Part shown: one piece after another, positions 1,868 to 10,109 of the stretch
Position numbering within the stretch: position 1 is the first letter of the stretch
Layout of the letters: each line of letters begins with the position of its first letter
The notes under the pieces: model-generated
Seen by the model: only the letters and a program-made list of their open reading frames with translations
Told to the model about the DNA's origin: nothing
The model's database searches: none
Made by a program: the position numbers and the translations under genes
From: Gammaproteobacteria bacterium
GTDB lineage: Bacteria > Pseudomonadota > Gammaproteobacteria > Arenicellales > Poriferihabitantaceae
DNA length: 58,323 nt
Assembly (NCBI GenBank): GCA_028817405.1
Contig: JAPPPS010000070.1
Location: 1 to 58,323 of the forward strand
Direction of reading: 5' to 3'

Positions 1868-1994
1868 GCGACTATTGCATAAAACCCGCATTAGCCGGGT
1901 TGTCTGCCAAACGCGGATTCATGCCCGCCGCGCGAATAGGCGGGGCTTTCACCGTTATCCTGATAGTCGCAACGGCCCGGCGCCATTGCGCCGG
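1868..1994 (+). ncRNA. structured RNA leader element, copy 1 (candidate novel motif)
   Basis: Visible helices are: terminal stem P1, GCGACTAT (1868-1875) with ATAGTCGC (1963-1970); P2, AACCCG (1883-1888) with CGGGTT (1896-1901); P3, CTGCC (1904-1908) with GGCGG (1939-1943), enclosing an inner hairpin CGCGG/CCGCG (1912-1916/1928-1932) and the single-stranded GCGAATA; and P4, CCGGCGC (1977-1983) with GCGCCGG (1988-1994). A second copy at 8481-8636 keeps the plan, the GCGAATAGGC core, the TTTCAC segment and an exact AACGGCCCGGCGC, while P1 and P3 change in compensating ways. It lies directly in front of the lipoprotein gene at 2025, so a cis-regulatory role is likely. I do not recognise it as a known riboswitch. 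Confidence 0.6.
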
Positions 1995-2024
1995 ATAATT
2001 TCGACTATCAACCGGAGAATCACC

Positions 2025-2366
2025 ATGAAACCCCTAACCGTTATACTCCCTTTCGTCGCCGCCATCCTGTTGGCCGGCTGCGCTGGCACCGAAAACCGCG
2101 TTAACGAAATTTCGCTTGGCATGAGCAAAGCGCAAGTGATACAGGTTTTGGGACAGCCGAAATCCACCCGCGCCAGTGCTGGTGTGGAATATCTGGTGTA
2201 TGACCTTAAAAAAACGACCGATGCTGGTAAGTGCGTGACCACGTCGTTAATGCTTGTCTCTATCGGATGTATGCGTGAAAAAGTTGAGTACTTCGTCCAG
2301 TTCAAGCAGGGCGTGGCCACGGCTTACGGTGAGATAGGCGACTTTGATTCCACGCAGGCCCCATAG
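2025..2366 (+). CDS. small lipoprotein with BamE/SmpA-like domain
   Basis: The 113-residue protein starts with a lipoprotein signal peptide whose lipobox LLAGC sits near residues 15-19, so it should be lipidated and held at a membrane facing the periplasm. The body (NEISLGMSKAQVIQVLGQPKST) matches the BamE/SmpA-OmlA fold, in which 'GMs..qV...lG.P' is the hallmark. The start at 2025 has GGAGA upstream and gives a clean signal peptide; a longer frame from 1875 runs through the structured RNA and is rejected. True BamE usually sits with fur or hscA genes, so this is probably a paralogue of unknown role. Two Cys residues in the C-terminal half could form a disulfide. Confidence 0.75.
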   Translation: MKPLTVILPFVAAILLAGCAGTENRVNEISLGMSKAQVIQVLGQPKSTRASAGVEYLVYDLKKTTDAGKCVTTSLMLVSIGCMREKVEYFVQFKQGVATAYGEIGDFDSTQAP

Positions 2367-2478
2367 CAAACTATCAACGTCAACAAAACGATAAAAATCC
2401 AAGAGTGATTCTGCAACAGTCCGAGATTCGCCTCGCCATTTCACCATCACTGCTGTCAGCGTGGCAATACGCAAACAG

Positions 2479-2507
2479 TTGACACCCCGGCGTGGTTCTG
2501 TTATTCT
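2479..2507 (+). promoter_or_regulatory. probable sigma70 promoter for the DUF2188 gene
   Basis: TTGACA (2479-2484), a 17-nt spacer and TATTCT (2502-2507) precede the start at 2538, with AGGAG at 2527-2531 as ribosome-binding site. Confidence 0.6.
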
Positions 2508-2537
2508 CCGTTTTTTAGTACTCGACAGGAGCGAGCC

Positions 2538-2786
2538 ATGAGCAAAGACAGAGATAGAACGGTGTATCGTCGTCCCGATGGTAAATGGGCCAACAAGCGT
2601 AACGACAGTAGTCGTGCCAGCAACGTTCATGATACGCAAAAGGCGGCGGAAAATGCGGCGCGCAGAATGCTCCGGCATCAAGGTGGCGGCGAACTGACGA
2701 CCATGGGGCGCAATGGCCGCATTCGTAGCAAAGACACTATCCAGCCGGGCGCGGACCCCTATCCCCCTCGCGACACCGAACACTGA
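2538..2786 (+). CDS. DUF2188 family small protein
   Basis: An 82-residue hydrophilic protein. The order VYRRPDGKWANKR, SSRASNVHDTQKAAENAAR and GRNGRIRSKDTI matches DUF2188, a small cytosolic domain often found as a single-domain protein in bacteria and phages. Its biochemical role is unknown. It has its own promoter and a clear AGGAG ribosome-binding site. It converges with the guanine deaminase gene; the 32-nt gap has A- and T-runs on both sides of a GC-rich core but only weak pairing, so a shared terminator is possible but not clear. Confidence 0.75.
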   Translation: MSKDRDRTVYRRPDGKWANKRNDSSRASNVHDTQKAAENAARRMLRHQGGGELTTMGRNGRIRSKDTIQPGADPYPPRDTEH

Positions 2787-2818
2787 TTAAAAAACCGCCC
2801 AGCCCCGCCAAGCGTTTT

Positions 2819-4123
2819 TCATCCACCCCACCTCTCCCCCATAACCCAAACCCCGTCCACCGCGCGGTCGTCGCCTAACATGAGCAAGGCGAAAAGTTTT
2901 TCCTCCAAATCCCGGCAGCCGGCCAGGCGGCGCGTGATTAGCGGCGTGGCGCGGTAGTTCAGCGCGATAAAGTCGGCTTCTTTGCCGGGGGCGAAGTTGC
3001 CGATGACATCCTGCAAGTCCAGCGCGCGGGCGCCGCCTAAGGTGGCGAGGTAGAGCGCGCGCAGCGGCGGCAAGTTGCGGCCCTGCAATTGCTCGACTTT
3101 GTACGCTTCGTTGATGACGCGCAGCAGCGAAAAACTGTCGCCGCCGCCGACATCCGAGCCGAGTCCGACGCGCGCATGATGTTCATCGGCGCAGCGCAAA
3201 TCAAACAAGCCGCTGCCCATGAACAAGTTGGAAGTCGGGCAGAACGCGAGGTTGGCGTCGGCCTCCGCCAGCCGCGCCCATTCGCGCGCGTTGAGATGAA
3301 TGCCGTGCGCCAACACCGCGCGGCGGCCGAGCAAACCGTGGCGGTCGTAGACATCGAGGTAGTCGCGGCAGTGCGGGAACAACTCCGCGACCCACGCGCA
3401 TTCGCGAGCGTTTTCGGCGATGTGAGTTTGCAGGTGAACGCCGGGGTTTTCCGCCAACAACCGGCCCGCCAACTGCAACTGCCGCTCGCTCGATGTCGGC
3501 GCAAAGCGCGGCGTCACCGCATAACCCAGCCGCCCTTTGCGATGCCACTTGGCGAGCAGTTTGGCGCTGTCTTGGTACGACGATTCCGCGGTGTCGCGCA
3601 CCGCGTCCGGCGCGTTGCGGTCCATCATCGTCTTGCCGGCCAGTAGGCGCAGGTTGCGCGCATGCGCCGCGGCGAACAGCGCGTCCACCGACTGCGGATG
3701 CACGCTGCCGAACACCAGCGCGGTGGTGGTGCCGTTGCGCAGCAGTTCGTCGAGGAAAACTTCCGCCGCCGCGGCCGCATGCGCGGGCTCGGCGAATCGC
3801 GCTTCGGCCGGGTAGGTGTGGCGCTGCAGCCAGTCCAGCAACTGCGCGCCGTAGGCGGCGATGATGTCGACTTGCGGGAAGTGGATGTGCGCGTCGATGA
3901 GGCCCGGCACGAGCAGGCAGTCACGGTGTTCGGCGACGCGCGCGGCGGGGAATTTCGCCAGCGTCTCCGCGGCATCGCCGCAGGCGGCCACGATGCCGTC
4001 CTCGACCACCAGCGCGCCGTCCGGGAAATACCGCCACGCGTCCGCGGCGTCGCGGCCCGGCGCGCCGGGGTCGTCGAGAAAATGCAGGATTTCGCCGCGG
4101 TGCGCGGCCAAGGTCGCGGTCAT
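2819..4123 (-). CDS. guaD: guanine deaminase
   Basis: This 434-residue amidohydrolase converts guanine to xanthine and ammonia in the cytosol. Metal-binding and substrate motifs appear in order: GLIDAHIHFPQ (His79, His81), QTHIAE, AHGIHL, FCPTSNLFMGSG and the metal Asp in GLGSDVGGGDSF. The combination of the TSN and GSDVGGG motifs is typical of guanine deaminase rather than cytosine or chlorohydrolase relatives. The start at 4123 gives the usual family N terminus (HRGEILHFLDDP). A longer frame to 4279 adds 52 Arg-rich residues with no family match. With uraD, uraH and the racemase at 12176 it points to purine degradation. No xanthine dehydrogenase or urate oxidase is in the window. Confidence 0.93.
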   Translation of the reverse strand: MTATLAAHRGEILHFLDDPGAPGRDAADAWRYFPDGALVVEDGIVAACGDAAETLAKFPAARVAEHRDCLLVPGLIDAHIHFPQVDIIAAYGAQLLDWLQRHTYPAEARFAEPAHAAAAAEVFLDELLRNGTTTALVFGSVHPQSVDALFAAAHARNLRLLAGKTMMDRNAPDAVRDTAESSYQDSAKLLAKWHRKGRLGYAVTPRFAPTSSERQLQLAGRLLAENPGVHLQTHIAENARECAWVAELFPHCRDYLDVYDRHGLLGRRAVLAHGIHLNAREWARLAEADANLAFCPTSNLFMGSGLFDLRCADEHHARVGLGSDVGGGDSFSLLRVINEAYKVEQLQGRNLPPLRALYLATLGGARALDLQDVIGNFAPGKEADFIALNYRATPLITRRLAGCRDLEEKLFALLMLGDDRAVDGVWVMGERWGG

Positions 4124-4612
4124 ATGGCGATGATAACCATGATTCGGCGATGGCGTTCGCGCCCGGCCGCCCCCCCGCAGTTCATTGTTCAAGCCAAGGG
4201 CAAGTTTTTTAGCGAGCATCTCGTCCATTCCGGCGCGGCGCTTTGCATGCAACGGAGGGCCATCATTCCTGCGCGCCACCAGAATGGCGGCGTTCCATCA
4301 GCAGTTGAGAGTCGCGAAGCGGAGAGAAAAAATAATAATCCAAATCATCGTGAAATTGGAGAATAACTCATCCAATTTTCTGTCGTAAACAAAACAAAAA
4401 TACCGATTTTTATTTTGTGACATGTTTCGATTGATTATATACTTCAAAAATTCCACAAAAAGTGTTGATTTCCATGATGAGGCGGCGTTATACCTGTTCG
4501 CTGGAATCACCCAGCGAATGGCTTTCAAGCAAAGTCCAATGCAACTTCTGACCCAAAATCAAGGCACGCAAAAACAGCGGCGCCGGTTGCGCTTGCCTAA
4601 ACTGAATTAGCC
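4124..4612. other. AT-rich intergenic region without a supported gene
   Basis: Between the divergent guaD and azlC genes, the part from about 4320 to 4560 is much richer in A and T than the surroundings. It holds a perfect 7-bp hairpin (TCGCTGG 4498-4504, CCAGCGA 4511-4517). Two short open frames (4298-4528 minus, 4422-4610 plus) look like chance. It could contain promoters for both genes; no single -35/-10 pair is compelling. Confidence 0.4.
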
Positions 4613-5347
4613 ATGCCCGACAAAACCCCCTTCGCTCGAATCTTGCCGGTTGTTCTTGCGCTGACGCCGATTGGGTTTTTGTTCGGCGTGCTGGCGGGGC
4701 AAGCCGACTGGAGCGCGTGGGGCGTGTTGGCGATGGCGTTGCTGGGCTTCACCGGCAGCGGGCAGTTCACTTATCTCGGCTTCGCGCATCCGGACAACGC
4801 GCAGATGGAATACCTCGCGGTGTTCCTGATTATCCTCGGCATCAACTTGCGGTATATCCCGATGAGCATGTCGGCGTCGACGCGCATCAAAGGCGGGGCG
4901 TTCATCAAGGCCGCGCTGGCGCACTGGTTGGCTGATGAATCGTACGCCACCGAGCGCGCGCCGGACGACACCCGCCGACGCGCCGTCATTCGCTTGTCGG
5001 TGGTGGCGTTCTGGACGCTGTCGACGGTGTGCGGCGCGTTGTTGTCGGGCGCGTTGCCGCCGGCCGTGCAATCGCTCCTGTCCGGCATGACTTTCCCCAT
5101 CAGCGCGATTTTAATTCTGCTGAGCATCGACAACATTCTCGCGTATCTTAAACGCCGCGGCTTTGAGGGCGGTTTCAAGTACCGTCTGCACCGGCAAAAG
5201 TTATTCGCCACCGCCGCTTGCATCGCCGCATCACTGCTGTGCATCACCGTCATCGGCGCAAAATATTTCTGGTTGCCGGCGATTGCGTTGTGCTATTTCA
5301 TTTTGATTCGCCTCGGCGGCGACCGGGAGGAAACCGCGCATGGATGA
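4613..5347 (+). CDS. azlC: AzlC family membrane transporter, large subunit
   Basis: The 244-residue polytopic protein matches AzlC, the large subunit of AzlCD exporters first linked to branched-chain amino acid or azaleucine efflux. The family stretches FTGSGQFTYLGF, VFLIILGINLRYIPMSMS and IDNILAYLKRR are visible between hydrophobic helices. The gene overlaps azlD by 8 nt, so the two subunits are probably translated together. Its place between purine-degradation genes makes a role with purine-derived or amino acid solutes possible, but the substrate cannot be read from sequence. Confidence 0.85.
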   Translation: MPDKTPFARILPVVLALTPIGFLFGVLAGQADWSAWGVLAMALLGFTGSGQFTYLGFAHPDNAQMEYLAVFLIILGINLRYIPMSMSASTRIKGGAFIKAALAHWLADESYATERAPDDTRRRAVIRLSVVAFWTLSTVCGALLSGALPPAVQSLLSGMTFPISAILILLSIDNILAYLKRRGFEGGFKYRLHRQKLFATAACIAASLLCITVIGAKYFWLPAIALCYFILIRLGGDREETAHG

Positions 5348-5639
5348 GCGCGTCATCATCGGCGTCGCGCTGCTGTTCGGCGTCAGCGTCATCGTGCGCA
5401 TTCTGCCGGCGTTTGTGCCGTTCAACTTCTCCGCGCGCACGCAGAGCAATATCAAAAACATTCTGCCGGTCGCGATTTTCGTTAACCTGATGGTTTACTG
5501 CGCGACCCAGGAAATCGTTCAAGACGCGGTTCCGGCCGTCACCGCCCTCGCGGTTTTGCTCGCGTTGTTCAAACCGCTGGGCTTGTTGCTCAGCATCATC
5601 GCCGCGACCGCGCTGTATGTTTTGCTGGCGCAAGTTTGA
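5340..5639 (+). CDS. azlD: AzlD family transporter, small subunit
   Basis: A 99-residue protein with three or four hydrophobic helices, matching the AzlD family (RILPAFVPFNFSAR, FVNLMVYCATQEIV). It overlaps the end of azlC by 8 nt, the usual arrangement for this two-subunit transporter. It probably assembles with AzlC in the inner membrane. Confidence 0.82.
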   Translation: MDERVIIGVALLFGVSVIVRILPAFVPFNFSARTQSNIKNILPVAIFVNLMVYCATQEIVQDAVPAVTALAVLLALFKPLGLLLSIIAATALYVLLAQV

Positions 5640-5732
5640 CCGCGGGGATTTCCGGAATGCCGCCCATGCTTCTCCGCCGCGCCGCTGTTACCGCATCGAC
5701 CGCGCTTGACCGACCGCGCGGAATTTTCAACA

Positions 5733-6482
5733 ATGCCGGGCATGAATACTGTCGCCGACACTGACTCCACCGATTCCGCCACCGTCGCCTTGGCGCGATT
5801 CAACCGCCTACCGCCGGCCGCCGCGGCCGAACGCTTGCGACGGTGCTGCGCCAACGCCGAGTGGGCAACGCGCATGGCGGCCGGGCGGCCGTACGACTCG
5901 CTCGCGCAATTGCTCGACGCCGCCGACCGTCACTGGCGCGCGTTGCCGGCCGAAGCATGGCTGCAGGCGTTTGGCGCGCATCCGGAAATCGGCGACATGA
6001 AAACCGCGGGGAATTCCGCGGCCGCGGCCGCGGCCGGCGATGGCGACGGCGATTCAGTTGGCGATTCGCGCCAAGAACAGTCCGGCGTCGCAAACGCATC
6101 GGCGCAAACCCGCGCCGCGTTGGCACATCTCAACCGCGACTACCGGCAACGGTTCGGTTTCATTTTCATCATCTGCGCCAGCGGTTTGTCCGCCGACGCA
6201 ATGCTCGTGCAACTGCGCGTCCGCCTCAAAAACTCGCGCGCCCAAGAACTCGCCAACGCCGCGGAGGAACAGCGCAAAATCACCCGCCTACGCCTGCGGA
6301 AATTGTTTGACGGTGATGCAACGGTGGCGGCGGGAGCGGCGACGGTGGAAACCGTGACGGTGGATTCGTCGGCAAAACCGGCGGCGGCGACCGAAGCAGC
6401 AAAACCGGCGACCGCAAACTCGACAACCCCGGCCATGGCAAAACCGGCGGCAACAACCCCGACATCCCCACCCCCCGCATGA
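5733..6482 (+). CDS. uraD: OHCU decarboxylase (2-oxo-4-hydroxy-4-carboxy-5-ureidoimidazoline decarboxylase)
   Basis: This enzyme makes (S)-allantoin in the last step of urate oxidation. The diagnostic HPEIGD (His83-Asp88 from this start) and EQSG motifs are present, followed by NRDYRQRFGFIFIICASG, the substrate-binding core. Two features are unusual: a Gly/Asp-rich insertion between HPEIGD and EQSG, and an Ala/Thr/Pro-rich tail after about residue 190. Both are encoded by simple sequence of the GACGGT type seen elsewhere in the window. The start is uncertain (ATG at 5733 or 5742; an upstream TTG at 5706 is less likely). The stop overlaps the uraH start (ATGA), so the two steps are co-translated. 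Confidence 0.88.
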   Translation: MPGMNTVADTDSTDSATVALARFNRLPPAAAAERLRRCCANAEWATRMAAGRPYDSLAQLLDAADRHWRALPAEAWLQAFGAHPEIGDMKTAGNSAAAAAAGDGDGDSVGDSRQEQSGVANASAQTRAALAHLNRDYRQRFGFIFIICASGLSADAMLVQLRVRLKNSRAQELANAAEEQRKITRLRLRKLFDGDATVAAGAATVETVTVDSSAKPAAATEAAKPATANSTTPAMAKPAATTPTSPPPA

Positions 6483-6820
6483 GCCAAATCACCACCCACA
6501 TCTTGGACACCGCGCGCGGCGTTCCCGCGGCCGGCGTGCGCGTGGCGTTGGCGCAGTGGCGCGACGGCGCGTGGGCCGAACTCGGCGCGGGAGTGAGCGA
6601 TGCCGACGGCCGCGTCGCCACCCTGCTGCCGCCCGGCGAAACCTTGCCGGCCGGCGAGTGCAAACTCACTTTCGCCACCGCCGACTACCACCGCGCGGCC
6701 GGCGCGCCGGGCTTTTATCCGCGCGTGGAAATCGCGTTTTGCGTCGCCGCCGGCGGCGCGCACTACCACATCCCGCTGCTGCTCGGCCCGTTCGGCTACA
6801 CCACCTACCGCGGCAGTTAA
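6479..6820 (+). CDS. uraH: 5-hydroxyisourate hydrolase (transthyretin-like)
   Basis: The 113-residue protein hydrolyses 5-hydroxyisourate to OHCU, the substrate of the enzyme encoded just upstream. It has the family's N-terminal THILDTARGVPA, the central DADGR and the hallmark C-terminal YRGS. The N-terminal His, the central Arg and HYHIP near the C terminus supply the known catalytic residues. No signal peptide is present, so it is cytosolic. The 4-nt overlap with uraD supports an operon. Confidence 0.93.
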   Translation: MSQITTHILDTARGVPAAGVRVALAQWRDGAWAELGAGVSDADGRVATLLPPGETLPAGECKLTFATADYHRAAGAPGFYPRVEIAFCVAAGGAHYHIPLLLGPFGYTTYRGS

Positions 6821-6845
6821 TTCACCGCGCCCGCCGCCGCATTCC

Positions 6846-8000
6846 ATGAACGCCGACTGGAACTACCCCACCGCGATTCGCGTCGGCGACGGCCGCATCC
6901 GCGACTTGCCGGCGGTTTGCCGCGAGTTCGGCATCGGCGCGCCGTTGTTGGTCACCGACCCGGGCCTGGCGCGCCTGCCGTTGGTCACCGAGCGCGTGGC
7001 CGAGTGCGCGGCCGCGGGTTTGAGCATCACGGTGTTCAGCGACCTCAAACCCAACCCCACCGGCGACAATGTACAGGCCGGCATCGACGCCTACCGAAGC
7101 GGCGCGCACGACGGTGTCATCGCCTTCGGCGGCGGCAGCGGCTTGGATGTCGGCAAAAGCGTGGCGGTGTTGGCCGGGCAAACCTGCGCGTTGTGGGACT
7201 TGGAAGACGCCGGCGACAACTGGCGGCGCGCCGACGCCGCGCGCATCGCCCCGAGCATCGCGGTGCCGACCACCGCCGGCACCGGCTCCGAAGTCGGGCG
7301 GGCCGCGCTCATCGTCAATCCGGATGCGCAGCGCAAAGTCATCATTTTCCACCCGCGCATGCTGCCGGCGTGCGTGATTCTCGACCCGCAACTCACCGTC
7401 GGATTGCCGCCGCAATTGACCGCCGCCACCGGCATGGACGCGCTGTCGCACAACTTGGAGGCGTATTGCGCGCCGCAGTACCACCCGCTGGCCGAGGGCG
7501 TCGCGGTCGAGGGCATGCGCCTGATTGCCGCGCACTTGGCGGCCGCGGTGGCGACCCCCGATGACATCGACGCCCGCCGCGCCATGTTGGTCGCCTCGCT
7601 CATGGGCGCGACCGCGTTCCAGCGCGGCTTGGGCGCGATGCACGCCCTCGCCCACCCGCTCGGCGCGTTGTATGACGCGCACCACGGCGCCCTGAACGCG
7701 GTGTTAATGCCATATGTACTGGCTGCCAACCGCGCCGCCATCGAGCCGCGCATCGCCCGCCTGGCGCGGCATCTCGACCTCGCACCCACCTTCGACGCCT
7801 TCCTCGACTGGGTGCTGAAACTGCGCGCGCAAATCGGCATCCCCCACACCCTCGCCGCCCTCGGCATCGACGCCGCCCGCGCAGACGAAATCGGCGCGAT
7901 GGCAACCGCCGACCCCTCCGCCGCCACCAACCCCATCCCCCTAACCGCCGCCGACTACGCCGCCCTCGCCACCCGCGCAGTGCGTGGGGAATTGGGCTGA
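6846..8000 (+). CDS. iron-containing alcohol dehydrogenase
   Basis: The 384-residue protein belongs to the group III (Fe-type) alcohol dehydrogenases. It shows the NAD-binding FGGGSGLDVGKSVA (about residues 94-107), PTTAGTGSEVGRAALI, and metal-ligand regions GMDALSHNLEAY, GLGAMHALAHPLGALY and DAHHG. The start at 6846 gives the usual N-terminal 'P..I.vG.G' arrangement; longer frames run into uraH. It lies 25 nt after uraH in the same direction. The substrate is unknown; short-chain alcohols, lactaldehyde or a downstream ureide product are possible. Confidence 0.9.
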   Translation: MNADWNYPTAIRVGDGRIRDLPAVCREFGIGAPLLVTDPGLARLPLVTERVAECAAAGLSITVFSDLKPNPTGDNVQAGIDAYRSGAHDGVIAFGGGSGLDVGKSVAVLAGQTCALWDLEDAGDNWRRADAARIAPSIAVPTTAGTGSEVGRAALIVNPDAQRKVIIFHPRMLPACVILDPQLTVGLPPQLTAATGMDALSHNLEAYCAPQYHPLAEGVAVEGMRLIAAHLAAAVATPDDIDARRAMLVASLMGATAFQRGLGAMHALAHPLGALYDAHHGALNAVLMPYVLAANRAAIEPRIARLARHLDLAPTFDAFLDWVLKLRAQIGIPHTLAALGIDAARADEIGAMATADPSAATNPIPLTAADYAALATRAVRGELG

Positions 8001-8037
8001 CCGGCGCCGCACGAGACAAACCGCGACCGCCGGCGAT

Positions 8038-8211
8038 GGCCGGAAAATGCCGGGGGCCGTCATTCCCGCTGGGCCTGCCCCCGCCCCCGAGCGGGGGACG
8101 CGGGAATCCAGACGCCACGGATGGCAAATTAACCGACTCGACAATGCCACATTTGAATCGCCGACCGTGGCCCACCCGCCACTCCGGCAACAGCCGGAGT
8201 CCAGAGTCTTT
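8038..8211. repeat. long dispersed repeat, copy 1
   Basis: Starts with GGCCGGAAAATGCCGGGGG and ends with GGAGTCCAGAGTCTTT. A nearly identical direct copy follows at 8238-8387. This copy has an extra C-rich insert with its own palindrome near 8070-8095. The end contains the palindrome CTCCGG..CCGGAG found at 10300-10345 and 58211-58245. Confidence 0.75.
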
Positions 8212-8237
8212 AACTGCCGGCGCGTAGCGCTGGCGAG

Positions 8238-8387
8238 GGCCGGAAAATGCCGGGGGCCGTCATTCCCGCTTGGACGCGGGAATCCAGATGCCACGGATGG
8301 CAAATTAACCGACTCGACAATGCCACATTTGAATCGCCGACCGTGGCCCACCCGCCACTCCGGCGACAGCCGGAGTCCAGAGTCTTC
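8238..8387. repeat. long dispersed repeat, copy 2
   Basis: Direct repeat of 8038-8211 without the C-rich insert, with only a few single-base differences. The pair fills the gap between the alcohol dehydrogenase and the methyltransferase leader. The stretch 8388-8440 holds no visible feature. Confidence 0.75.
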
Positions 8388-8440
8388 ATCTTCCGTCCCC
8401 CCCACACCGGCCCAATTAAACAAAAACCCCCGCCGGCGAT

Positions 8441-8470
8441 TTGCCGCTTGCATCCCCCGATTTGTGCTAT
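8441..8470 (+). promoter_or_regulatory. possible promoter for the second structured leader
   Basis: TTGCCG (8441-8446), an 18-nt spacer and TGCTAT (8465-8470), overlapping a TATATT. Transcription would start near 8477, a few bases before the terminal stem at 8481, the same geometry as at 1832-1868. The -35 box is weak. Confidence 0.4.
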
Positions 8471-8480
8471 ATTTCCGCTC

Positions 8481-8636
8481 GCACAGATTCACGCATGTAG
8501 CCCGCTTCGCCGGGTTACCTGTCAAATACAACAGCGGTTTTTACCCGGCACGGGGTCATTCCCGACGGGGCGAATAGGCAGGAATTTCACTTGCTACATG
8601 CGTGTGATCTGTGCAACGGCCCGGCGCTTCGAGCGC
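8481..8636 (+). ncRNA. structured RNA leader element, copy 2 (candidate novel motif)
   Basis: P1 is long here: 20 nt at 8481-8500 pair with 8594-8614 with one small bulge. P2 is CCCG/CGGG (8501-8504/8511-8514). P3 is CCTGTC (8518-8523) with GGCAGG (8577-8582), enclosing a CGGG/CCCG hairpin (8551-8554/8561-8564) and the conserved GCGAATA. P4 is GCGCT/AGCGC (8624-8628/8632-8636). The 13-mer AACGGCCCGGCGC at 8615-8627 is identical to 1971-1983. It ends 27 nt before the methyltransferase start. An in-frame ATG inside P1 (8598) could in principle give a longer protein, but the family N terminus fits 8664. Confidence 0.6.
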
Positions 8637-8663
8637 GTGGACCGGCAACAGGTCACATGCCCG

Positions 8664-10109
8664 ATGAAAACCAACACCCTATACGCCGGCGACTGTCTCG
8701 ACCGCATGCGGGAGTGGCCCGACGCTTGCGTGGATTTGATTTACCTCGACCCGCCGTTCAACAGCAAGGCGAACTACAACATCCTGTTCGGCCGCGGCAA
8801 AGACAAAAACAAAAAGAACGACCTCGCGCAGATGACCGCGTTCACCGACACTTGGCAATGGGATGCCGACGCCGAACAGCGCGTGCATCACATGCGCAAA
8901 GCCATCGACCACCCCGCGCACTACGCGATGAAAGCCTTCGACATGTTGTTCCACGGCGGCAACGGCATGCTCGCTTACTTGTCGTATATGGCCGAGCGAC
9001 TCGCGGAGATGCACCGCGTACTGAAAGACACCGGCAGCATCTACCTGCACTGCGACCCGACCGCATCGCATTACTTGAAAGTGGTGATGGATGAAATTTT
9101 CGGAAAGAACAATTTCAGGAATGAAATTGTTTGGTGTTATCCGCCAAAAGGCAAAGGGCCAAACTTGGCGTTTCATCGCAAACACGACGTCATCTTTTAT
9201 TACGGAAAGTCGAATGAAGGCGTTTTTAACCGTCCTTATACGCCGCTTAACGACGCGCAAATCGCAAAGTTTTCTTCTACGGACAAACAAGGGCGACGCT
9301 ACAAAGAATTTAAGGGACGCAAAACTTATCTGGATAAAAGTTTAGGCCGACCGTTGCCGAGTTGGTGGACTGACATCGCGCAAACCGGACAGTCGCGAGT
9401 GGAAATGCTTAACTATCCCACCCAAAAACCGCTCGCGTTGTTGAAGCGAATTATCAAAACATCTTCCAACAAAAACGATGTCGTGCTGGACCCGTTCTGC
9501 GGCTGCGGCACCACCATCGAAGCCGCGCATTTGCTGAAGCGTCACTGGGTCGGCGTCGACATCTCCTACTACGCGATTCAAGTCATTCGTCGCGAGCGCA
9601 TGAAAGACATGCGCATCGTGGTGGACGGCGAGCCGACCTCGCATCAAGCCGCGGTTTATTTTTCCGACAAGCATCCGTTTGAGTTTGAAAAGTGGGCGGT
9701 CACGCGCGTTCACGGTTTCGCGCCCAACACCGTGCAGCGCGGCGACGGCGGCATCGATGGGCGCGCGTTGATTTGGAACGGCGAGCAAGACAACGACTTA
9801 TGCATCGCGCAAGTCAAACGCGGCAAACCGTCGGTCGATGCGTTGCGCGCGTTCTACGGAAAAATCGCCGCCGGCGAAGCCGCCATCGGGTTGTTCATCA
9901 CGCTGTACAAACAAAAACGGACACCCACCGCGCGGGAGTTAACCGCCAAAGCCGGCTACATCGACATCGGCGGCAAGCAATTCAACCGCTTGGTGATGTG
10001 GTCCATCGAGGAATTCTTCGAAGGCCAAGAGCCAAAAATCCCCCACCTCGCCCACCCCCGAACCGGCGCCCCCCTGCAAGAACAAGTCTTCGAATTGCAA
10101 GGCGGATAA
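8664..10109 (+). CDS. DNA methyltransferase fused to an Mrr-like restriction nuclease domain
   Basis: This 481-residue protein joins two activities. Residues 1 to about 310 form a beta-class N4-cytosine/N6-adenine methyltransferase: catalytic DPPF at 29-32 near the N terminus and the AdoMet motif DPFCGCGTT near residue 275, with the target-recognition region between. Residues from about 340 carry a PD-(D/E)xK fold of the Mrr type: GDGGIDGR followed by AQVKRGK, giving the D...QxK signature. A fusion like this could be a self-contained restriction-modification enzyme. DNA from about 9090 to 9480 (the target-recognition part) is clearly AT-richer than the rest, which suggests recombination of this segment. 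The gene sits behind the structured leader at 8481-8636. Confidence 0.85.
   Translation: MKTNTLYAGDCLDRMREWPDACVDLIYLDPPFNSKANYNILFGRGKDKNKKNDLAQMTAFTDTWQWDADAEQRVHHMRKAIDHPAHYAMKAFDMLFHGGNGMLAYLSYMAERLAEMHRVLKDTGSIYLHCDPTASHYLKVVMDEIFGKNNFRNEIVWCYPPKGKGPNLAFHRKHDVIFYYGKSNEGVFNRPYTPLNDAQIAKFSSTDKQGRRYKEFKGRKTYLDKSLGRPLPSWWTDIAQTGQSRVEMLNYPTQKPLALLKRIIKTSSNKNDVVLDPFCGCGTTIEAAHLLKRHWVGVDISYYAIQVIRRERMKDMRIVVDGEPTSHQAAVYFSDKHPFEFEKWAVTRVHGFAPNTVQRGDGGIDGRALIWNGEQDNDLCIAQVKRGKPSVDALRAFYGKIAAGEAAIGLFITLYKQKRTPTARELTAKAGYIDIGGKQFNRLVMWSIEEFFEGQEPKIPHLAHPRTGAPLQEQVFELQGG

Follow-up and report, generated by a model that had tools for sequence, protein, structure and literature searches.

The stretch of DNA analysed here (the window) comprises 58,323 nucleotides of contig JAPPPS010000070.1 from a Gammaproteobacteria bacterium (assembly GCA_028817405.1) and contains two copies of what is almost certainly a real structured cis-regulatory RNA family. 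Each copy lies directly upstream of a different gene, all features being on the + strand. An earlier reading of the letters without database searches (the sequence-only reading) had reported both copies, and both were located again: a pattern search with GCGAATAGGC-N5-TTTCAC gave exact matches solely at 1932-1952 and 8570-8590, and the 13-mer AACGGCCCGGCGC was found exactly at 1971-1983 and 8615-8627. The start codons at 2025 and 8664 lie 30 and 27 nt past the ends of copies 1 and 2, the spacing given by that reading, and the gene assignments that it had made were borne out by Pfam domain matches. Gene 1 (2025-2366) encodes a BamE-domain lipoprotein of 113 amino acids (PF04355, E = 2.3e-6) and gene 2 (8664-10109) a DNA N6/N4-methylase fused to an Mrr-type nuclease, 481 amino acids in length (PF01555, E = 2.9e-46; PF04471, E = 3.2e-7). 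Both copies fold better than shuffled sequences (z = -2.7 for copy 1 and -3.9 for copy 2).

Copy 1 (1868-1994) is a shortened member of the family. It is preceded by the promoter sequence already named in the sequence-only reading (1832-1860; -35 box TTGACA at 1832-1837, 17 nt spacer, -10 box TCTAAT at 1855-1860), and the 5' arm of its outer stem P1 (1868-1882) begins at the predicted 5' end of the RNA. The P2 hairpin (1884-1901) is formed by strand I (ACCCG, 1884-1888) and strand II (GCCGGGTT, 1894-1901), and is followed by the P3/P4 domain (1902-1945), which contains the core GCGAATAGGC and P3 (TCTGCC at 1903-1908 with GGCGGG at 1939-1944). About 20 nt of core (AATACCACAGCC...AACCCG) are absent, the deletion falling in the usual internal loop of this domain. 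The 3' arm of P1 (P1', 1954-1970) includes GATAGTCG (1962-1969), which is complementary to CGACTATC at 2002-2009. Strand V (GGCCCGGC, 1974-1981) lies inside the shared 13-mer and is complementary to strand II, so that the 13-mer contains one strand of a second long-range pairing. The P5 hairpin (CCGGCGC-CATT-GCGCCGG, 1977-1994) closes the copy, and the putative ribosome-site region CGACTATCAACCGGAG (2002-2017) consists of a third copy of the P1 5' arm together with a GGAG Shine-Dalgarno sequence.

Copy 2 (8481 onward) is a complete member. It has no good -35 box; an extended -10 box, TGCTATATT, is read directly at 8465-8473 instead. The P1 5' arm (8481-8500) is followed by P2 (8501-8516; strand I CCCG at 8501-8504, strand II GCCGGGTT at 8509-8516), the P3/P4 domain (8518-8582; P3 CCTGTC at 8518-8523 with GGCAGG at 8577-8582, and the conserved AAATACAACAGC and GCGAATAGGC), P1' (8593-8614) and strand V (GGCCCGGC, 8618-8625) within the 13-mer. 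The putative ribosome-site region GGCAACAGGTCACATGCC (8644-8661) is complementary to P1' (-24.1 kcal/mol, first among 82 partners tested). That the terminal stems of the two copies are unlike in sequence yet paired in both was upheld; the 8 bp allotted to the stem of copy 1 was too short, because weaker pairs extend it above. Upstream of copy 2, the region 7984-8440 carries a short repeat in several copies (TCCAGAGTCTT..., CATTCCCGCTTGGACGCGGGAATCCAGATGCCACGGATGGCAAATTAACC).

The earlier observation was right but understated, since the family is much larger. P1 averages 18.9 bp (range 10-24; n = 120 elements), and independent extraction of P1 gave a different arm sequence in every copy with pairing kept. 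Inside P1 lie the small hairpin P2, then P3 and then P4, the most conserved sequence being the P3 internal loop (GAATACAACAGCC on the 5' side and CGAATA on the 3' side). Of the P1-P4 pair cells in 77 sequences, 94.7% are paired, compared with 65% in shuffled and 33-45% in slid controls; the alignment was fitted to the model and thus favours it, and the slid control and the independent P1 extraction agree with it. Two-sided changes number 729, against 191 in shuffled and about 100 in slid structures, and occur in 31 of the 35 pairs (score 0.73, against 0.21 shuffled). The conserved structure is thus backed by covariation, as befits a structured leader RNA. P5 is present in 108/120 elements. A pairing of strand II with the AACCCGGC tract of the core, taken from minimum-energy folds, was rejected because it is missing in many divergent copies (e.g. 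L029, L034 and L050) in which P2 and P4 hold. Unusually fast evolution of P1 relative to its flanks was unsupported in the genus (identity 55-67% in the arms, 53% in the promoter stretch and 61% downstream). Four loci (L067, L073, L081 and L189) carry, just after the element and ahead of the gene, another conserved tract (CCGCGCA...GGTTGG...) that has a variable closing stem of its own (e.g. GCGCAATGAGG / CCTCATTGCGC) and may be a second leader RNA in tandem. At L067, L073 and L189 the opposite strand has a tRNA gene a short way upstream.

The genome of the window yielded nine copies with a simple core pattern and 14 (E <= 3e-9), well above chance expectation, with a first covariance model built from six genomic copies (window copy 1 and five from elsewhere in the genome); a 15th match (C74, E = 0.69) was taken as chance. 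The same model found copies in 11/60 relatives, among them members of the same genus and of a second family in the order. The covariance-model search of related genomes, a check that the sequence-only reading had proposed, brought many further copies, mostly directly before start codons. When 84,980 species genomes were scanned once for a core pattern of 25 bases, 49 loci were found. Every one lies in a metagenome-assembled genome, and the labels are Gammaproteobacteria, Pseudomonadales, Nitrospirales, Gemmatimonadota, Limisphaerales, Poribacteria, Alphaproteobacteria, Deltaproteobacteria, Chloroflexi and Rhodothermaceae. One locus (L093, labelled Deltaproteobacteria) is nearly identical to copies of the genus and is likely a binning error; some copy-bearing assemblies are at chromosome level (Nitrospirales OY282373 and several Pseudomonadales), and binning error is therefore not the explanation for all cross-phylum copies. 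A second covariance model found copies in 33/33 genomes checked, mostly ones already known to carry a copy, with 1-9 copies in most, 14 in the window's own genome and a maximum of 42 in one Limisphaerales bin. Searches of 39 relatives of this bin gave no copy. Copies are present in 8/37 relatives of a Pseudomonadales genome and in at least 3/368 other Gammaproteobacteria, the latter figure being a lower bound because surveys of more than 40 genomes lose sensitivity. The viral collection gave no match to the core pattern. The prefixes STY, RHO, COS and IRC, borne by many of the isolate names, fit host species of a sponge study (PMC8163846), an association drawn from the names only. Degenerate copies lacking P3' and the TTTCAC tract precede a DnaJ-like reading frame in two species (L022 and L053) and are possibly a decaying ancestral insertion. 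At L061, L066, L068, L071, L086 and L091 (several genomes) near-identical element copies are followed by a conserved stretch (GACGTTCGCTGCCCCGGCAGCCTAGCGTCAGCGACACCTGCC...), which had no Rfam match among the loci scanned, and by no gene.

A strong -35/-10 match lies upstream of 72/120 elements (4/120 in shuffles), and in 71 of these 72 a gap of 5-9 nt separates the end of the sigma70-like -10 box from the first base of P1. This spacing is locked to P1, and the RNA should therefore begin with P1 itself. Most copies lie directly before start codons, ending 40-60 nt upstream, so that a putative promoter of its own and placement before a gene were both found by sequence. Strong covariation, the P1-locked promoter and this placement support the proposal of the sequence-only reading that the element belongs to a regulatory leader or small RNA family.

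By a crude rule, 69 of the 94 downstream proteins (73%) have a signal-peptide-like start, compared with 84 of 251 control reading frames (33%; p = 4e-11); in a later set the count was 27/36. Pfam matches among 73 proteins include CsgG, outer-membrane beta-barrels, OmpA, subtilase, BamE, TbpB, inverse autotransporter and DNA methylases. DNA methylase genes are the exception to the secreted-protein rule; they recur directly downstream in several genomes (window 8664-10109, Mrr-fused; L017, L033 and L158). Within three groups of loci (L136/L143/L147/L151, L049/L055/L057 and L011/L012) the first 45 coding bases are 76-89% alike and the mature proteins are dissimilar; the module can therefore include the signal-peptide start. 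The first group comes from one Limisphaerales genome; its members have the element and the first ~20 codons (MQKIHATLSALADL...) in common and the rest of the proteins are unrelated, which suggests cargo exchange behind a common leader.

The patchy distribution suggests horizontal spread. The module (promoter, RNA, ribosome site and sometimes signal-peptide start) would have spread by horizontal transfer as well as inside genomes, reaching mostly genes whose products are secreted or belong to the outer membrane. Mobility of this kind could also be that of a DNA-level repeat (miniature inverted-repeat transposable element, attC-like or repetitive-extragenic-palindrome-like) whose inverted repeats merely resemble RNA stems, and the multi-phylum spread, the 42 copies in a bin whose 39 searched relatives gave none, and the element and signal-peptide DNA common to genes with unrelated mature parts all fit such a repeat. 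However, no shared terminal repeat of an insertion sequence or miniature element was found, each copy has different outer arms, the promoter keeps phase with the first P1 base, the element is oriented toward the start codon and G-U-tolerant pairing is kept. The sequence-only reading had named a DNA repeat lacking promoter linkage and covariation as the outcome that would speak against it, and the element has both. A purely DNA-level repeat is thus extremely improbable, and mobility of the module is compatible with RNA function rather than an alternative to it.

The sequence just ahead of the start codon is often a repeat of the P1 5' arm that contains the Shine-Dalgarno site (L096, L043 and L211). 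P1' pairs with the ribosome-site region of its own gene at -15.3 kcal/mol, compared with -11.9 kcal/mol for those of other elements (0/20000 permutations). The preference was replicated in L136-L175 (0/20000), in L176-L235 (-17.0 versus -12.3 kcal/mol, 0/20000) and in the window's own genome (G000) alone (4/20000); in the first set it was not seen for the P1 5' arm or for windows further downstream. The pairing is concentrated between positions -25 and -10 relative to the start codon, and perfect or near-perfect cases occur at L211, L208, L207 and L033. Copy 2 of the window is among the best cases, and the 8-mer match of copy 1 adjoins its GGAG Shine-Dalgarno sequence. The leaders thus contain an alternative pairing predicted to be able to occlude the ribosome site, as in a translational riboswitch.

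This matching also bears on whether the element is a leader at all. If it were instead a trans-acting small RNA, the P1 5' arm or a free 3' arm would target other mRNAs and the downstream genes would be incidental. A few copies without an obvious gene (e.g. L160 and L162) may be stand-alone, and L160 is followed by a terminator-like hairpin and a T run, as such an RNA would be. In most copies, however, a start codon follows 40-60 nt after the end of the element, and P1' is a better match to the region downstream of its own element than to those of others. The small-RNA explanation is accordingly very unlikely, and the leader reading is supported as the better fit because P1' is matched to the predicted ribosome-binding region of its own gene.

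The other alternative pairing would join strand V (GGCCCG[GA]C), which sits 2-3 nt to the 3' side of P1', to strand II (G[CT]CGGGTT), the 3' strand of P2, the two being complementary over eight positions. Over 157 elements 98.1% of these positions are paired, and two-sided changes number 42, whereas 2000 shuffles gave 3.2 on average and 24 at most. At II2/V7 the pairs are C:G 74, T:G 47, T:A 21, T:T 2 and C:A 1 (p = 5e-7); changes also occur at II1/V8 (A:U, Limisphaerales bin) and II8/V1. Because V follows P1' after only 2-3 nt, II:V is impossible while P1 is closed, and a single pseudoknot combining II:V with the full P1 was rejected on geometry (a 2-3 nt linker against a stem of 18-22 bp). 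As modelled, II:V can coexist with the pairing of P1' to the Shine-Dalgarno region, the two helices forming an H-type pseudoknot in which the linker between them is short.

The leaders thus seem able to adopt either of two mutually exclusive folds, one of which is predicted to hide the ribosome-binding site; the two folds compete because both alternative pairings exclude P1. We propose that the first base of P1 is also that of the transcript. In state A, P1, P2 (I:II) and P5 (V:V') would be formed and the Shine-Dalgarno region would be free. In state B, II:V and P1':Shine-Dalgarno, joined by 2-3 nt, would form an H-type pseudoknot blocking ribosome binding. The states would interconvert, A presumably being ON and B OFF. 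The P3/P4 domain with its conserved internal loop would be common to both and is the likely signal-binding site, with AATACAACAGC / GCGAATA as the candidate ligand or protein site in the core; the putative signal would be a small molecule or a protein.

Several points weigh against this model. By nearest-neighbour sums state A is more stable in 96/96 elements, by a median of 19 kcal/mol, and P1 is made first in transcription; state B would for these reasons need help, be it from a bound factor, from ribonuclease III (RNase III) or from loss of the 5' arm. In about half of the copies P1' matches the ribosome site only weakly, the permutation tests leave shared ancestry in, the two-sided changes of II:V come partly from a few clades, and the cross-phylum copies are from metagenome-assembled genomes, some phylum labels of which may be binning errors. 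Since the energetics favour A, we consider the full model, in which the cis-acting leaders are a two-state switch on translation, probable rather than firmly established.

The same energetics would be expected of a constitutive structured 5' leader that does not switch, in which the blunt 19 bp P1 protects the mRNA, the core binds a protein and the likeness between ribosome site and P1 5' arm is a by-product. The mean P1 length of 18.9 bp and its beginning at the predicted transcription start are in line with this. Such a leader nevertheless leaves unexplained both the own-gene complementarity between P1' and the ribosome site (0/20000 in three sets) and the covariation of II with V, a pairing incompatible with the full P1; we regard it as unlikely. 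The two-state model may also be given a named trigger, with which its probability overlaps: RNase III would cut P1, the freed P1' would cover the ribosome site and turn translation off, and a core-bound factor would protect P1. A P1 of ~19 bp amounts to a two-turn double strand, a partly conserved U-G/G-U pair lies in mid-P1, and cleavage would supply the energy that state B lacks. The U-G/G-U pair, however, is clear only in part of the family, and cleavage is a proposal from sequence; control by RNase III specifically is rather unlikely.

Rfam 15 gave no family at the gathering threshold over the window elements or over loci from many genomes, the best sub-threshold match being attributable to chance (Leu_leader, 17.3 of 50 bits); this agrees with the failure of the sequence-only reading to place the element in a known riboswitch class. 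A literature search on the core words and on similar systems found no relevant publication. The family is new to Rfam 15 and has so far been found only in uncultured genomes. DUF3800-VI RNA (RF02915) lies within ~1 kb of two element copies in different genomes (L051:2215-2271 and L176:2457-2513); it is separate in sequence and structure, and the element itself is unmatched.

Known systems resemble the family in part. c-di-GMP-I (GEMM) riboswitches occur many times per genome upstream of diverse genes for surface and secreted proteins. The new family is alike in this multi-copy placement but has a different conserved core, and the Rfam scans, which would have reported GEMM, gave no match to its covariance models. 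The leader of the phage lambda cIII mRNA can take either of two folds, one of which hides the ribosome site, and RNase III decides between them; the likeness lies in the two folds, whereas cIII is a single gene with neither a conserved aptamer-like core nor a family of copies. The ompA 5' leader has a stem-loop at the extreme 5' end of an envelope-protein mRNA that protects the mRNA from decay. Its 5'-end stem is alike, but it has no alternative ribosome-site pairing and no large family. Translational pseudoknot riboswitches (SAM-II, SAM/SAH and preQ1-II/III; compare PMC10516623) are like the predicted OFF state, with an H-type pseudoknot over the Shine-Dalgarno sequence and a competing fold. 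The new family differs from them in having no sequence or Rfam match and in being much larger, with a 19 bp outer P1, a shared 3' arm and up to 42 copies per genome.

Tentatively, and with rather less confidence than in the switch itself, we suggest a new riboswitch class, so far confined to uncultured bacteria, in which a 19 bp 5' stem would exchange with a ribosome-hiding pseudoknot on sensing a signal, and which may have spread across phyla of sponge- and marine-associated bacteria as a portable cassette of promoter, switch and signal-peptide start that puts unrelated secreted proteins under one control. The three-way match between the two stem arms and the ribosome site lends itself directly to mutational analysis, and a ligand search would have a defined target in the conserved internal loop. 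If the model is true, a single unlisted RNA would govern a regulon of the surface and secretome in uncultured members of several phyla, some genomes having tens of copies. A leader travelling with a signal-peptide start would be an unusual route by which new genes come under old control. Such a regulon would suggest that a common signal is at work, perhaps one linked to host association or phage pressure, as surface-protein and DNA methylase genes recur downstream.

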